Source: a virus
DNA: 41,352 bases
IMG/VR virus record: IMGVR_UViG_3300036822_000048
Coordinates: 1-41,352 of that record
Reading direction: 5' to 3' (one strand)
The notes beneath the pieces are model-generated. The model saw only the letters and a program-made list of their open reading frames with translations, was not told the origin of the DNA and made no database searches. The position numbers were made by a program, and so were the translations under genes. Each line of letters starts with the position of its first letter. Within the stretch, counting starts at the first letter, position 1. Of the stretch, positions 17,349-29,228 are shown in pieces.

Positions 17349-18389
17349 ATGCCTGCCGCCTTCCTAGCTCCAAATGCCCAATTTCGTAGCTGGGACAATA
17401 GCGGCGCGCCCCTGGTGGGCGGCAAGCTATTTACCTATAGCGCAGGCACCAGCACCCCGGTGGCCACCTACACAGATTCGACGGGGGGCACCCCGAACAC
17501 AAACCCGATCATCTTGAATTCTCGGGGAGAGGCGCAAGTCTGGCTCACGCCAAACGTGGGCTACAAGTTTGTGCTGCAAGATCGATTTGGTAACCCGATA
17601 TGGACGGTGGATCAGCTTTTCAATTCTCAGCTGCTTACCCTCTTCGGTGGCACTGATACGGGCTTTGCAAATAGCTACGTGTTGAATTTTGTTTCTAACT
17701 TCACCAGCCTGGTGAATGGCATCGTAGTTTATTGGATACCGGCGAATACCAACACCGGGCCCAGCACTCTCAACGTGAATGGCCTTGGCCCTATTCCGAT
17801 ATTGAATCAAGGCGGCGCGCCGCTGACGGCTGGCCAGCTGTTTGCCAATCAAGTGGCCAATGTCATGTACTTCAATGGCAATTGGTTGCTCATCTCTTCA
17901 GGCTATTCATCGGCAGCGGCGCAGAGTTTATTTATTGCCAATCGATCGATTGGCGCAGGCAATCAAACATTTCCACCCAATGCCATTACCATCGCGTTGT
18001 TTGATGCCGTCACGGCAAATCAAAACAGTGTCTACAACACCGGCACTGGGCTCTTCACTGCGCCCACCACGGGCATTTATCAGTTCACGTGCATTGTCGC
18101 TATGGAAAGCCCTGCAAGTTCATTCCTTGCGCCCAGCATCTTTTTTAGTAAGAACGGGCTTTTCAGTGTTGGGCAATTTTGGCCGACGGTCGGCCAATTC
18201 TTAGGCGCGCCAGCCGGTGGGGCCGCTGTGCCAGCCAACACCAGTGGAGCATTCGGAGCCACAGCGCAATTTGTCATGAACGCTGGGGACACCATGCAAA
18301 TCTCAGTTCAGACGGCAAACCCCGGTGGTGGCTTCTTTATGTTTGGCGACGGCAAATCAAGCCAGTTCTCTGGCTACCGGGTGGGCTGA
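17349..18389 (+). CDS. Tail fibre with C1q-like C-terminal domain
   Basis: 346 residues. The N-terminal 90 residues (FRSWDNSGAPLVGGKLFTY, AGTSTPVATYTDSTGG, NPIILNSRGEAQVWL, FVLQDRFGNPIWTVDQL) are a widespread phage fibre/tailspike head-binding module. The last 150 residues show the C1q/TNF-like pattern (VYNTGTGLFTAPTTGIYQF, then beta strands ending SGYRVG), which makes compact trimeric receptor-binding tips. It begins the second receptor-binding cluster, after the ejection genes. ATG 17349 has no clear ribosome-binding site. The next gene repeats the N-terminal module. Confidence 0.82.
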   Translation: MPAAFLAPNAQFRSWDNSGAPLVGGKLFTYSAGTSTPVATYTDSTGGTPNTNPIILNSRGEAQVWLTPNVGYKFVLQDRFGNPIWTVDQLFNSQLLTLFGGTDTGFANSYVLNFVSNFTSLVNGIVVYWIPANTNTGPSTLNVNGLGPIPILNQGGAPLTAGQLFANQVANVMYFNGNWLLISSGYSSAAAQSLFIANRSIGAGNQTFPPNAITIALFDAVTANQNSVYNTGTGLFTAPTTGIYQFTCIVAMESPASSFLAPSIFFSKNGLFSVGQFWPTVGQFLGAPAGGAAVPANTSGAFGATAQFVMNAGDTMQISVQTANPGGGFFMFGDGKSSQFSGYRVG

Positions 18390-18390
18390 C

Positions 18391-19023
18391 GTGACCACTG
18401 TCCTATCGCCGTCCCCCGTCTTCCGTGGCTTCAATAACCAGGGCCTACCCTTGGTCGGGGGCTTGCTCTTCACCTATGTAGCGGGCACCACTACGCCACA
18501 AGCTACGTGGGTGGATTCGACGCAGACCACACAAAACACAAACCCCGTGGTGCTGAACTCGCGCGGCGAAGCAAACGTGTGGCTTGATCCACGGCTCACT
18601 TATAAATTCGTGCTGCAAGACTCGGCAGCTAGTCCCATTTGGACGGTGGATCAAATACCGGGCAACGGGACTGGCGGCAGTCAGGGCAGTTTCGCGGCGA
18701 CCACGACAGGCTTTACTGTGGTACTCACGCCTACCATTCAGTGGGTATTGCAGGGGCCCATAGTCACGCTGGTGCTGCCCTTGATAACAGGCACGAGCAA
18801 TGCCGCAATTTTCAATATTGCGGGCTTGCCCGCCTTCCTACAGCCATTGCACACGCAAATTTGCTCAGTCGCCACCATTCAAAATAATGGCGTGAATACG
18901 GCCGGTGGCTATGCTGCGATGATACCGGGAAATTCATCGATTGGAATTTCCTTTCCGGCTGTAAACTGGACGGCCAGCGGCACCAAGTCATGCCAGGGAA
19001 CAGTTACCTATTCCCTGACTTAG
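18391..19023 (+). CDS. Short tail fibre paralogue
   Basis: 210 residues from GTG 18391, one base after the preceding stop; the longer frame from 18325 would run inside the previous gene. The first 85 residues are clearly paralogous to the start of the upstream fibre ([43 protein letters not shown]), but the C-terminal 110 residues are different and have no C1q features. It ends with TAG at 19021-19023 and overlaps the csrA stop end-to-end by 20 bases. Likely a second, alternative or accessory receptor-binding fibre using the same attachment site. Confidence 0.78.
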
Positions 19024-19204
19024 CTTCGCCACCTTCCTTGCCTTCGTTTTGTATCCTCTCGTAAATTTCCTGCCGATGTACTGCCACATCTTTGGGCGCA
19101 TTCACGCCAATGCGTACCTGATTCCCCTTCACCCCTAAGATTGTGATAGTCACGTCATTCCCCACCATCACCGTTTCATTCACTCGCCGCGTTAAAATAA
19201 GCAT
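19004..19204 (-). CDS. csrA: Phage-encoded CsrA/RsmA post-transcriptional regulator
   Basis: 66 residues from ATG 19204, preceded by AAGGAG six bases upstream; the longer frame to 19243 is not needed. [29 protein letters not shown] and [10 protein letters not shown] follow E. coli CsrA (61 residues) almost position by position. RNA-binding residues Leu4, Arg6 and Arg44 are present. CsrA dimers bind GGA motifs in mRNA leaders and change translation and stability, controlling carbon storage, motility and biofilm. Here it is the last gene of a three-gene minus-strand cassette, 35 bases after the triple-HTH gene, and would let the phage or prophage retune host metabolism. Family call is very secure; targets are unknown. 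Confidence 0.97.
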
Positions 19205-19239
19205 TGGAACTCCTTTTCTAATTACGCGTATCCACATAA

Positions 19240-20094
19240 TCATTTAGTCAGTGAATTAAGAGCCATCATAGCCAGCAAGTGGGCTTGGTCAAATTCCTTT
19301 ATGACACCGGTTTGAAGCATTTTAGTCGCCTCATCGCGTGCGTGTTTTAGGAAGGAGACGGCATCGCGCATGCCTACACTGATTGGGCCTGCCATCTTGG
19401 CCCCGCTGGCATCAAAGGGCACGCCAAGAGCATTAGCGACAGCCTGGCCGCGCCCCTTCATGTATTTGCGTTTCCCGCCAATCGTTCGCCGCCAGTAATC
19501 AATGCCGCTTGGCGTGACGCCAATCTCCTTGCCAATGTCCGTGATGCGCTCACCCTTTGCGATTCTCGTTAGAATGGCTTGCTTGAACTCAAGCGGGAAT
19601 CTGCTGACGGTAGGATTGGCGCTAGGTGGCAAGATGTGTTTAGCGTGATGGGATCGGCGTTTAGCCTTCTTTGATGTTTCAGGCGATAGCTTTCTGCGCC
19701 AGGCTGAAAGCATGCTGGTGGAGATTTTCAAATCCTTGCAAATCACTTCCAGCGTTTCATTGCCTTTATTCCAACGCTCAACGGCTTTGCGCTTGAAGTC
19801 ATCTGAATAGACTTTGACACCACTCGCCAACACGCTGACGCCTTTGACCTTGGTAGGCTTGGCCTTGCTGGCCTTGCCTACGTCCCCGGTTATCCAGCGC
19901 CGCAATACCGTGGCATGAATGTTCATCTCTTTCGCCAGATGCGCTATCGGGCCTTTGTATTTCTTGGCCCTCTCAACGGCTTTGCGTTTGAACTCGGTTG
20001 AGAAGTCACGGCGTGGGACTATCTTGCGTCCCTTACTATCTGTCGCAACCATGGCAACAGTCTCAGGGGCTTCAGATGCGTTAGCTTCGGCCAT
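19240..20094 (-). CDS. Triple tandem transposase-type HTH DNA-binding protein
   Basis: 284 residues from ATG 20094 with AGAGGA nine bases upstream. It holds three copies of an IS3-OrfA/HTH_Tnp_1-like unit: residues 31-70 ([13 protein letters not shown]...WITG), 96-135 ([13 protein letters not shown]...AWRRK) and 166-205 ([13 protein letters not shown]...YWRRT). Units are spaced by 65 and 70 residues with basic linkers. There is no DDE transposase partner, no inverted repeats and no IS nearby, so this looks domesticated as a regulator. Units 1 and 2 also share nearly identical DNA (19777-19800 and 19972-19995). It overlaps the upstream gene by 14 bases and precedes csrA. A repressor role would fill the missing CI slot, but that is a guess. 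Confidence 0.8.
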
Positions 20095-20368
20095 TTCGTT
20101 TATTCCTCTTATCGCGTCGATAGGCTGACAATTGGGTGATGTCTTCGCGCCGTTCGTCTATGTGTTCAGCACGGAACAAAAATTTACCCAAGCGTTTGGT
20201 GTAGTCCAGTATTTCGGCTGGACGTTTCTTAGAGTGATACGCCATTGATTGGCGGCAGTTTGAACAGAATTTTCTTCTAGCATGGCCCACAAGGACATTG
20301 GGGCAATTGAGAGTTGGACACTTCACAGATGCATACTCCTTTCGTGGCGCGACATGCGCCAAAACCAT
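20081..20368 (-). CDS. Small zinc-ribbon protein
   Basis: 95 residues from ATG 20368, or 81 from the GTG at 20326. The ATG has AAAAAGGAG only two bases away, while the GTG has AAAGGAG nine bases upstream, which is better spaced. Cys residues at CPTLNCPN and CSNCR give a four-cysteine zinc-ribbon pattern; the rest is strongly basic ([11 protein letters not shown] end). First gene of the operon with the triple-HTH protein and csrA. Probably nucleic-acid binding; no family recognised. Confidence 0.72.
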   Translation of the reverse strand: MVLAHVAPRKEYASVKCPTLNCPNVLVGHARRKFCSNCRQSMAYHSKKRPAEILDYTKRLGKFLFRAEHIDERREDITQLSAYRRDKRNKRNGRS

Positions 20369-20759
20369 TGCTCCTTTTTAAGTGGCCGTTGGTATATCTA
20401 CCTTAGCGCAGCGCACCAGCATTAGGCTACAAAAACGTCAAGAAAACTTGCGCCGCCATCCCTCCATTAATCGTAACTTGGGCGCATCTCAGTTAGGCCA
20501 AACTAAGCCCGATTTGAGATAAAAAGCTCCAAAACTGTTACCACCCCCCTGTAAGTTGATGATTCACAAGGCTCAATTTTCGTGTTGCGTCCACGGCCAG
20601 GCTCCCTTACTCTATATTCCTCGGGAAATACTTAAATCTGGTTACTTTTTAATCATCTGAATTACGCTGGATTTATAGAGGTTTCGCCGAATTGGTATTT
20701 TAAAAATGTACCAAATCTGTACCATCAAATTGCACCAAACAGAGAAAGGAATATTAGTC
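20369..20759. promoter_or_regulatory. Intergenic region between the csrA cassette and integrase, candidate attP/arm sites
   Basis: 391 bases without a supported gene. It holds TTGGTA at 20389-20394 and 20692-20697, and the near-repeats TGTACCA (20707-20713), TGTACCA (20718-20724) and TGCACCA (20731-20737) just before the integrase start; the first pairs with TTGGTA as an inverted repeat. A separate imperfect hairpin has ATCTCA at 20486-20491 and TGAGAT at 20515-20520. A TTGACG hexamer lies on the minus strand near 20436-20441, without a good -10. Integrase arm or core sites commonly lie here, but I cannot name the core from one sequence. Confidence 0.5.
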
Positions 20760-21815
20760 ATGGCAACGTTTGTAAAGAGAGGTAACAAGGTGCGCGCAGT
20801 AGTGCGCAAGGTCGGCATGCCTGCCGCCACCAAATCATTTGATTCGATGCGCGACGCCAAGGCATGGGCGGCAGCTGAAGAGACCAAGCTGACCACGCGC
20901 GTGGTCGATGCTGGCGGGCTCACCTTGGGCCAAATCATGGGCAAGTATTTGGAGCGCTACAAGGAAACGCGTCCCTACACGGTCCAGTGTACTGAGTGCC
21001 TGTATCGGCGCTTCATGCGTGACTTTGCTCACGTCGATATTGCCGACATGAATACGCAATGGTGGCTCGATACCGTCGAAGGGTGGAGCCATGGCCACAC
21101 GGGCAACAAAATCAACCGGGCCACGGCGCGGCGCTATCTGACCTACATCACCACGGCGCTGAAGACTTCAAAGCGGCGCTGGAATGTAACGGTCAATTGG
21201 GATGCGTACCATGAGGCGCTTGAACAGCTGAAGGATGACAAGACCGTGGGTAGCGGTCGCAGCCGTACCCGTCGATTGCAGCCCGGTGAATTGGAGAAAA
21301 TGCAGGCCTTCGCCAACACCATGGAGACACACGTCCCCTTCGCAGACATCATGGACTTTGCCATTGCTTCAACCTTGCGCATTGGTGAAATTCTGCGCTT
21401 GGAATGGCGTCACGTGAATGACTTGACACGCACAGTTATTATCAAAGATCGGAAAGACCCACAGAACAAGGAAGGCAATAACCAAGAGATACCGTTGCTA
21501 AACGGCGCTTACGACATCATCCAGCGGCAGAAGACCAAGGGCAATAACAGCAAAATATTTCCCTATAAGCGTAATTATGTTTGCCAGCGCTTCGGCTTCA
21601 TCTGCAAGGAAGTGGGCATAGAAGATTTTCACTTCCATGATTTTCGCCATGAGGGCATCTCGCGGCTGTTTGAAGAGGGCTACCAGATTGATGAAGTAGC
21701 CTTAGTCTCAGGCCATAAGAAGTGGGACATGTTGCGCAAGTACACCCACCGTAAGGCTGCCGATCTTCACCGTGGACCTTCGGCGCAGCAGCGCAAAGGC
21801 GTCAAGGCCGCTTAA
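20760..21815 (+). CDS. int: Tyrosine recombinase integrase
   Basis: 351 residues from ATG 20760 with AAAGGA nine bases upstream; the frame to 20706 is longer but unsupported. Arm/core-binding N-terminal part to about residue 165, then the catalytic domain with Arg207 (STLRIGE), His293-x-x-Arg296 (HDFRHEGIS), His319 (SGHKKW) and nucleophile Tyr328 (LRKYTH), the complete R-H-R-H-Y set; a Lys in the 229-237 hairpin completes it. It catalyses site-specific integration and, with an excisionase, excision. It is the only plus-strand gene between two minus-strand blocks, with a hairpin terminator just downstream at 21825-21848. Confidence 0.95.
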   Translation: MATFVKRGNKVRAVVRKVGMPAATKSFDSMRDAKAWAAAEETKLTTRVVDAGGLTLGQIMGKYLERYKETRPYTVQCTECLYRRFMRDFAHVDIADMNTQWWLDTVEGWSHGHTGNKINRATARRYLTYITTALKTSKRRWNVTVNWDAYHEALEQLKDDKTVGSGRSRTRRLQPGELEKMQAFANTMETHVPFADIMDFAIASTLRIGEILRLEWRHVNDLTRTVIIKDRKDPQNKEGNNQEIPLLNGAYDIIQRQKTKGNNSKIFPYKRNYVCQRFGFICKEVGIEDFHFHDFRHEGISRLFEEGYQIDEVALVSGHKKWDMLRKYTHRKAADLHRGPSAQQRKGVKAA

Positions 21816-22065
21816 GGCCGTTGTGGGACGGGGGGCCGCCCCCGTCCCGCATCTTTCTCCATTCAAGCATTGCCTTGGCATCCTGCCGCCGCAGGTAAGC
21901 CTTGATAACCTTCTTAGAGACGACGCGATGCCTACCCCTACGTTGGGTCGGCACGGGGAAGTATCCCCGGTATACGGCATTCTGCGCGGCTAGGAAGGTC
22001 ATCCCGAAGAGCGGCGCGGCTTCCTTCAGTGTCATGCAGGGGTCATCAATCACAAGCTCTGGCAT
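21802..22065 (-). CDS. Small HTH protein, excisionase- or PrtN-like
   Basis: 87 residues from ATG 22065, preceded by AAGGTGAG; a GTG three codons upstream is the alternative. Residues about 11-60 (MTLKEAAPLFGMT, AQNAVYRGYFPVPTQRRG, VVSKKVIKAYL) form a winged-helix/MerR-like DNA-binding unit as in phage excisionases and PrtN-type activators. It is the last gene of the leftward early operon and ends against integrase (14-base overlap of the 3' ends), which favours an Xis-type role in directing excision. The C-terminal tail is encoded by a perfect hairpin, noted separately. Assignment between Xis and PrtN-like activator is open. Confidence 0.68.
   Translation of the reverse strand: MPELVIDDPCMTLKEAAPLFGMTFLAAQNAVYRGYFPVPTQRRGRHRVVSKKVIKAYLRRQDAKAMLEWRKMRDGGGPPSHNGLKRP
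21825..21848. terminator. Strong hairpin after integrase
   Basis: GGGACGGGGG (21825-21834) and CCCCCGTCCC (21839-21848) form a perfect 10-bp stem with the tetraloop GCCG, nine bases after the integrase stop. The plus-strand continuation (GCATCTTTCTCC) is only moderately T-rich. On the minus strand the hairpin is inside the last codons of the HTH gene. It may stop or stabilise the integrase transcript, or terminate both convergent transcripts. Confidence 0.65.
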
Positions 22066-22075
22066 GGCACTCACC

Positions 22076-22945
22076 TTAGTAAATCACTATTTTTTGGTCA
22101 TCACTCGGCTGAACCGTCACGGTGTTGCGTGTCGCGGGTGCCTCTTGCTTGCGGCGGGACCAATTCCACCCTTTGATAACCATACGCATGCGAATGGCCA
22201 GCGGGTACTTGGCTACTTGGGCGGCATCACGGATGAATGCGGCGCGAAGGATGTATTCGGGGTCCGACCGTATGATGTCCTCACCCGTGTACAGCCGCCG
22301 CATAAAGCGGCTGGCATCGTCTTGGTTCTTACGCTGAAACATCTCATACAGCGCAACGCCGCAGCCCAATGACAGGGGCCGCGCCTCATGTGGATAGCCT
22401 TGAAGTGTTTCCGCACATTGGAGCATCGATAGATGTTCCTTCACGTATTCAATCACGGCAGTGTTGGACAACCGTCCATGGCCAATCGCCTTGCGATCCA
22501 TGCGTGAGCACCATTGTGCTGCTGTCGCGCAGGCTTTGACGATGTAATGCTGTACCTGTGGGAAGTACAGAAACAAGGCATCTGCCCCGGTACGCACCGC
22601 GCCCGTGTCGATAGTTTTGAAGGCATCTGGGGAGATGCCGTACACCACCATCGACTTGATGGACTTACCTGCCTCAACGATGGCAAATAATCGATGTTGC
22701 CCGTCCAATACTTGCTCATCTTCGGCTATCACAATGGGCTGGCCATTCACTTGCCAATTGCCATCAAGAATCTCTTGCGCCAAAAACTCAACGTGGCGCT
22801 TGCGCACGGGCCGGTTGTTTCGATTGCAGCGCAGCCATTCAGTAGCATCGCGCGGCGTAATGGTCATTACCTCCGCGATGATGTTCCGGTCACCACCGTA
22901 AATTTTTGCCGCATGGGGAAACTGTATGATTTTTGGGTCTGCCAT
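22076..22945 (-). CDS. ParB/DGQHR-type nuclease-fold protein
   Basis: 289 residues. The signature VLDGQHRLFAIVEAG has D81-G-Q-H-R85, the phosphoryl-binding motif shared by ParB/Srx-like and DGQHR-domain proteins, here after a region (PVRKRHVEFLAQEIL) that selects input residues. The C-terminal 150 residues are helical with no recognised motif and end in a Gln/Asp-rich tail. Such proteins occur in phage early regions and may be CTP-dependent DNA-binding or nuclease proteins, roles not proven. It lies between the recombination genes and the small HTH gene in the leftward operon, and its stop overlaps the SD of that next gene. Confidence 0.8.
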   Translation of the reverse strand: MADPKIIQFPHAAKIYGGDRNIIAEVMTITPRDATEWLRCNRNNRPVRKRHVEFLAQEILDGNWQVNGQPIVIAEDEQVLDGQHRLFAIVEAGKSIKSMVVYGISPDAFKTIDTGAVRTGADALFLYFPQVQHYIVKACATAAQWCSRMDRKAIGHGRLSNTAVIEYVKEHLSMLQCAETLQGYPHEARPLSLGCGVALYEMFQRKNQDDASRFMRRLYTGEDIIRSDPEYILRAAFIRDAAQVAKYPLAIRMRMVIKGWNWSRRKQEAPATRNTVTVQPSDDQKIVIY

Positions 22946-28267: not shown

Positions 28268-28309
28268 AGTGCATCCAATAGCGCGCTGCGACGCGCTACA
28301 AGATGCACT
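28268..28309. repeat. Long interrupted palindrome after ardC
   Basis: Symmetric parts: AGTGCATC (28268-28275), CAA, TAGCGCG (28279-28285), a 6-base centre CTGCGA, CGCGCTA (28292-28298), CAA, GATGCACT (28302-28309). Both arms therefore pair over 8 and 7 bp, broken only by a CAA/CAA internal loop. It covers the end of ardC (stop at 28308-28310 on the minus strand) and the gap to the next gene. Could be an attenuator, RNase site or protein-binding cruciform. Confidence 0.7.
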
Positions 28310-29228
28310 AAGCTGCGATTGCTTCCTCTTCGGTGGCTTCCTCTTCCGATGCCTTGGACAGATACGCCGCTGCTTGCTTGGCCAGTGTCGCGGCCTTGAT
28401 GATTGCCGCGTTGTCTCCCTTCAGTACCTTGATCCAATTGTTCAAGTACTGCGCATGGTCTGCGCGCGGCTCGACACTAATGCCCAGCTGCGCGCTGAGC
28501 ATTGCGCTGCCAAGCTCCGCCACCAATTCTTCGAAGGCATACGCCTCACTGCCGAATCGGCCAGAGAACTCACGGGCAAGGCGTGATTCGTGTCCCGTCC
28601 AGTGCGTGAGTTCATGCGCTAAGGTGCCGTAATAAGCTTCCGTCGCGCTGCTGGTAGGCGTCGCACTGAAGAGCGTCTTATTGGGCATGTGGATGTGGTC
28701 AAGGGCTGGGCTGTAGTAGGCCCGGTCATTATTCGAGTGACGCACTTCTGCGCCTACGCTTGCAAAGAATGCATCAGCAATTTCGAGCGTAGCCACGGTC
28801 TCAGCGGGTGTCGGCTCTACCACGGTCCATGAGGCGCGCAAGCTATCAGCGTATGCGCCTTCGACTTGGTCGATGTTGAAGACATTGAGGTAACGCAGCA
28901 AAGGCCGCTTGGTGAGCTTAGCCACGCCATTGACCGTGGTTATGCGCTCCAAGATGTTCCAGTACACGATCATGGTTGACTTGCTGCCGCGCTTAACCAT
29001 GCAACCCTTGTCTTTCCACTGGCCAAAGCCTGCCCACATCGGCAAGGCAAATTCAGTGGTGGCAAGCAGAAACTGATTCATGCCTTGGTAGGCCTTGCCC
29101 GTGGTCGGATTCATCGGTCGATAGGCTTTGCCCGTTTTCTTAAACGGGTTAACCCAATTCGCGCCATGGGTTTGCATCAGGCTGACAATCCGGTCAGTGA
29201 CAGTCTGGTAAAGGTCAAATTTGCTCAT
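28308..29228 (-). CDS. ardC: ArdC-type antirestriction protein
   Basis: 306 residues from ATG 29228, seven bases after AGAGGA. The N-terminal ArdC/DUF1738 domain has NWVNPFKKTG, YRPMNPTTGKAYQGMNQF and WKDKGCMVKRGSKS. The C-terminal zincin-like domain has H205-E-L-T-H209 (AHELTHWTGH) and a later Glu (EELVAEL, 233-239) as third zinc ligand. ArdC-type proteins of plasmids and phages protect incoming DNA from restriction, by ssDNA binding and possibly proteolysis. It leads a minus-strand operon with its own strong promoter, suitable for immediate expression on entry or in the prophage. Confidence 0.92.
   Translation of the reverse strand: MSKFDLYQTVTDRIVSLMQTHGANWVNPFKKTGKAYRPMNPTTGKAYQGMNQFLLATTEFALPMWAGFGQWKDKGCMVKRGSKSTMIVYWNILERITTVNGVAKLTKRPLLRYLNVFNIDQVEGAYADSLRASWTVVEPTPAETVATLEIADAFFASVGAEVRHSNNDRAYYSPALDHIHMPNKTLFSATPTSSATEAYYGTLAHELTHWTGHESRLAREFSGRFGSEAYAFEELVAELGSAMLSAQLGISVEPRADHAQYLNNWIKVLKGDNAAIIKAATLAKQAAAYLSKASEEEATEEEAIAA

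Follow-up and report, generated by a model that had tools for sequence, protein, structure and literature searches.

A candidate transferable regulatory module of zinc-ribbon, multi-HTH and CsrA genes beside the integrase of P22-like phages

Described CsrA carriers and the slot beside the integrase

CsrA homologues are known on several mobile elements, and csrA is carried by about 1.2% of phage genomes (PMC7366521). The Bci protein of the Pseudomonas prophage AUS531phi is CsrA-like and is reported to affect phage infection, motility, biofilm and pyocyanin (PMC7546807). Among temperate podoviruses, Bcep22-like ones such as JC1 carry csrA as a moron (PMC9144972). The plasmid protein RsmQ takes global control of host translation (PMC9928087), and one report places CRISPR-Cas under Rsm control (PMC8450108).

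Here, csrA is found in another setting. The window, meaning the whole stretch of 41,352 nucleotides analysed, is a 41-kb virus record with P22-like podovirus portal, scaffold, coat, Hc3 and DNA-ejection proteins. Zinc-ribbon, multi-HTH and csrA genes lie on its minus strand, flanked by the last tail-fibre gene and the integrase, all within the interval where the original prediction placed three such genes. The first two overlap by 14 nt, and 35 nt separate the multi-HTH stop from the csrA start. The features are as follows.

18391..19023, plus strand: last tail-fibre gene, convergent with the cassette and overlapping the csrA 3′ end; start inferred from relatives.
19004..19204, minus strand: csrA, 66 aa; PF02599 match (E=2.8e-25); close to P. 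aeruginosa RsmA (1vpz); R6, R7 and R44 conserved.
19240..20094, minus strand: multi-HTH protein gene, 284 aa; PF01527 (HTH_Tnp_1) in three stretches (E=4.2e-19), with no catalytic transposase domain.
19246..19377, minus strand: C-terminal helical hairpin, residues 240-283; common to proteins with 0, 2, 3 or 6 HTH units.
19489..19599, minus strand: HTH unit 3, residues 166-202; unit mapping, helices in the AlphaFold model.
19696..19809, minus strand: HTH unit 2, residues 96-133; same evidence.
19891..20004, minus strand: HTH unit 1, residues 31-68; same evidence.
20081..20326, minus strand: gene for the zinc-ribbon protein, 81 aa, beginning with GTG; relatives keep this start position and the four cysteines; the AlphaFold model has a mean pLDDT of 85.6.
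20346..20360, minus strand: inverted repeat GGCGC-N5-GCGCC immediately ahead of the Shine-Dalgarno site of the zinc-ribbon gene; it may be an operator or an RNA hairpin.
20706..21815, plus strand: tyrosine integrase, divergent from the cassette; PF00589 (E=1e-22).
22076..22945, minus strand: ParB-like gene (phrog_5931), context; neutral bait for relatives.

The known systems resemble this locus only in part. Bci is a temperate-phage CsrA-domain protein like the cassette CsrA, but has 123 aa, occupies another genome place and has no zinc-ribbon or multi-HTH partner annotated alongside. The JC1 gene also belongs to a temperate podovirus, whereas it stands alone on the late strand, between the portal and capsid genes, and its product is possibly in the virion (PMC9144972). 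RsmQ is likewise a mobile-element homologue, but is plasmid-borne with no such cassette described (PMC9928087).

No paper was found describing the three linked genes. The original prediction that the cassette is undescribed thus stands for the combination but not for a phage-borne CsrA acting on the host, for which Bci is the precedent (PMC7546807). Phage csrA is already known, and the new part is the linked block with a multi-HTH gene and an undescribed zinc-ribbon family.

The cassette lies beside the integrase and opposite the late genes. Xanthomonas phage PBR31, the nearest named relative by the head-closure protein (56%), has the same slot, bounded by its late genes and integrase, where it carries a putative O-antigen deacetylase and not the zinc-ribbon/HTH/csrA cassette. 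This match to a conversion-type locus agrees with the proposal that the position is that of a lysogenic-conversion module. The gtr genes of P22 occupy this slot, too.

The three proteins

The zinc-ribbon protein consists of four cysteines in a CxxxxC..CxxC pattern, kept in 20 homologues, and a helical tail. An overextended open frame of 95 aa was rejected: its upstream part meets a stop codon in L111 and lies in another frame in L103. Since relatives keep the start MKCPTxNCPN (start codons GTG, GTG and TTG), we moved the start to give 81 aa (20326-20081).

This family has no match as a curated family in Pfam, PHROG, NCBIfam or PDB. Pfam and PHROGs gave three isolated weak matches among the 20 homologues, none of them common to members. 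Comparison with the known phage zinc-finger regulators (Ogr/Delta, Com and others) matched no described family, and a fold search on the predicted structure gave no useful match. The protein was found neither in plasmids nor, at the thresholds used, in named phages (50,697 records, with the L112 homologue as the query there).

In a sister group (L115-L132), a zinc-ribbon homologue downstream of the ParB-like gene adjoins a conserved protein of about 210-250 aa resembling an XRE-type DNA binder. No integrase, multi-HTH or csrA gene lies alongside it.

The AlphaFold model of the multi-HTH protein has three tri-helical units, joined by flexible linkers, and the helical hairpin, with a mean pLDDT of 69 overall and about 85 inside the units. 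The unit number varies: two in L104, L105 and L186 (and in L135, outside the clade), three in nine phages and six in L114. The C-terminal hairpin also occurs in L128, joined to a different N-terminal part, and alone without any HTH in small proteins of L188 and L189. Each of the latter directly follows a zinc-ribbon gene, making a minimal two-gene version (L188:5989-6491, L189:3028-3488).

Units of the same index are more alike across phages than units of different index (0.364 vs 0.284, permutation p=0.0004, for five distant three-unit proteins). Hence, judged by its sequence, the HTH array is ordered and old, not a recent tandem expansion.

Because the units belong to the IS3/IS66 OrfA/TnpA type, the protein might be a decayed, functionless transposase remnant. 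It shares PF01527 with the TnpA-type proteins but differs from them in its multiple units, its C-terminal hairpin, the lack of a transposon and its scores below the NCBIfam cut-offs for full-length IS transposase equivalogs (NF047595, 59.4 vs 74; NF033516, 48 vs 160). No catalytic transposase domain was found in the phage multi-HTH proteins scanned, while the C-terminal domain and the neighbours are conserved. Moreover, dN/dS of 0.08-0.26 indicates purifying selection, which contradicts decay. A remnant is very improbable.

Among the 50,697 named phage records, none had the multi-HTH protein at the thresholds used, and its plasmid matches are IS transposase HTHs. A scan of isolate genome contigs with the HTH alignment gave a single hit, which is distant (29% over residues 31-189) and lies on a 3.7-kb contig. 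This one isolate-genome scan relied on short conserved peptides and may overlook distant prophages. A structure search with the HTH model returned weak matches to transposase, Pax and Cbp1-type proteins, with E of at least 0.2, and in a defence library only short HTH pieces matched, weakly, to mad1.

The nearest functional analogue of the array is Cbp1 of Sulfolobales, which also has three tandem HTH units; these line up along one CRISPR repeat (PMC10883916). Cbp1 is archaeal and CRISPR-repeat specific, unlike the phage protein. The NCBIfam Cbp1 equivalog leaves the window protein unmatched and gives the L104 protein 18.7 against a cut-off of 140 bits. The relation is one of likeness, not of membership.

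The CsrA domain scores above the curated cut-offs of PF02599 (88.5 bits vs 27) and NF002469 (112.7 vs 73), and the window protein has an ordinary sequence. The RNA-binding residues L4, R6, R7, R44 and others are invariant in 10 aligned cassette CsrAs and also kept in L106. A 79-aa version from an overlapping ATG at 19243 was ruled out by comparison with relatives in favour of 66 aa from the ATG at 19204.

Thus, the cysteine pattern, the three HTH_Tnp_1 stretches and the PF02599 match bear out the parts as originally named, a zinc ribbon, a 284-aa triple HTH protein and CsrA. With DNA-binding folds in the HTH protein and key RNA-binding residues intact in CsrA, one member probably acts on DNA and one on mRNA, also as proposed.

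A contig filed as an Acinetobacter phage (L098, CAKLQH020000034.1) has an alaS-thrA-csrA arrangement, so its csrA looks bacterial chromosomal and the contig mislabelled. Something similar may apply to a 691-kb Salmonella record from the same collection.

Conservation and exchange among relatives

So that the cassette itself would not serve as the query, relatives were sought with the ParB-like gene, which lies beyond the integrase. The set comprises 13 distinct phages, of which 12 are the window itself or come from the ParB-like bait and one (L186) from a zinc-ribbon bait. All cassette carriers are known as metagenomic contigs, and those of the three-gene set are uncultured soil-type viruses of bacteria.

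The zinc-ribbon and multi-HTH genes occur in order and in the same slot in the 13 phages, with csrA intact directly downstream in 11. The original prediction depended on the three genes occurring together in relatives, and this they do. Every relative with the window-type ParB-xis-integrase block and a contig reaching beyond the integrase has the zinc-ribbon gene, and all except L112, whose contig ends after it, have the multi-HTH gene. Their order and orientation between integrase and fibre are the same.

The cassette is retained though the integrases are only 33-85% identical and L113 has one without detectable homology. Relative to the window, the zinc-ribbon and HTH proteins drop to 22-27% identity and CsrA to 49-60%. 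Among closer pairs, dN/dS of the cassette genes is 0.02-0.26, which indicates that they are under purifying selection.

L107 and L109 share 96% nucleotide identity over a stretch that opens about 65 nt ahead of the zinc-ribbon start and extends beyond csrA, against 83-84% on both sides, so the cassette was evidently exchanged between them as one unit. The homology of the window, L103 and L111 begins at the zinc-ribbon leader. The three-gene set looks like a transferable regulatory module.

The least constant member is csrA, which breaks off after about 34 residues in L105 and is missing from L186, and is thus not essential to the other two. In the CsrA tree, the sequences are too short and the branching is unresolved, and the cassette CsrAs do not group together. 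Hence, csrA may have been replaced more than once, and some cassette CsrAs may be independent acquisitions.

These gaps suit an alternative that the zinc-ribbon and HTH genes are a self-contained pair, for example an autoregulator with a counter-defence or toxin/antitoxin-like partner, and csrA is a separate downstream moron. L135 lacks csrA as well, L188 and L189 pair the zinc ribbon with a bare C-terminal domain, and csrA is found without these partners in many phages. The intact csrA directly downstream in most of the 13 phages and its movement with the pair in L107/L109 argue the other way. We regard this separation as possible but rather unlikely.

Expression and proposed function

The stem of the inverted repeat is identical in the window, L103 and L111, and the loop varies. 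A simple promoter scan upstream of the zinc-ribbon gene found no match, although such scans miss many promoters, and Rfam and tRNA searches of the sequence found nothing. Leader RNA folding was no better than that of shuffled sequences. GGA sites in the leaders, as for CsrA autoregulation, were suggestive in the window and L111 only.

A 13-bp GC-rich hairpin (21822-21851) lies at the convergent ends of the integrase and the xis-like gene. Its T-run is only in the plus direction, and it looks terminator-like for the integrase. The cassette shares its strand with the erf-yqaJ-ssb-ParB-xis operon, so readthrough into it is possible.

Beyond the clade, zinc-ribbon relatives are found with small ORFs in regions that are unassigned and possibly early, near ParB/SSB-like genes and other DNA-binding proteins and not next to an integrase. 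Early expression is therefore a real alternative, in which the cassette is not a lysogen module. The zinc-ribbon and HTH proteins would act on phage early transcription, and CsrA would tune phage or host mRNA in the takeover. However, the divergent integrase stands between the cassette and the operon, the hairpin lies at the integrase/xis junction and the cassette recombines separately from the operon. An early role is conceivable, with the odds against it.

The conversion-type slot and the Bci precedent must be set against the neighbourhoods of the zinc-ribbon relatives and the lack of a recognised promoter. On this balance, expression of the cassette in lysogens is likely though unproven. 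Our preferred reading, to which we give a probability of roughly 0.5 with its array, zinc-ribbon and CsrA mechanism included, is an accessory regulatory moron of temperate P22-like phages.

As such a moron, the cassette would stay next to the integrase and pass from phage to phage as a block. The multi-HTH protein would bind one extended, specific DNA site by its ordered array and may oligomerise via the C-terminal hairpin. The zinc-ribbon protein would be its partner or co-regulator, because the two stay paired even without csrA and even when the partner lacks HTH units. The cassette promoter, and possibly host promoters, may be under their joint control.

CsrA in turn would act on GGA sites near the start codons of host mRNAs and shift the host translational programme, which in known systems covers motility, biofilm, carbon storage and sometimes CRISPR expression. 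The shifted translation would favour the lysogen or the infecting phage. We hypothesize that host metabolism is reprogrammed by the cassette. A bolder form, that the zinc ribbon and variable HTH array are a new phage DNA-targeting regulator, whose unit number and order set the target and whose coupling to CsrA reprogrammes at both DNA and mRNA levels, is doubtful.

Phage CsrA homologues have so far been listed as stray morons, and here csrA regularly belongs to a block that is conserved and transferable. The block offers a well-delimited setting in which to study phage takeover of post-transcriptional control. Its 0 to 6 HTH units on a constant C-terminal domain form a natural series on site choice by tandem HTH proteins.

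Other features of these genomes deserve mention. In L113, a 479-aa open frame (L113:5041-6480) is inserted between yqaJ and ssb. The window gene at 28308-29228 on the minus strand strongly matches the anti-restriction protein family phrog_7245 (E=3.8e-82). The two plus-strand tail-fibre genes at 17349-18389 and 18391-19023 have a common N-terminal domain (GxPLVGGxLFTYxAGTxTPxATxxDSTxxTxNTNPxxLNSRGEAxVW), as if duplicated, and this pairing recurs in relatives with differing C-termini.
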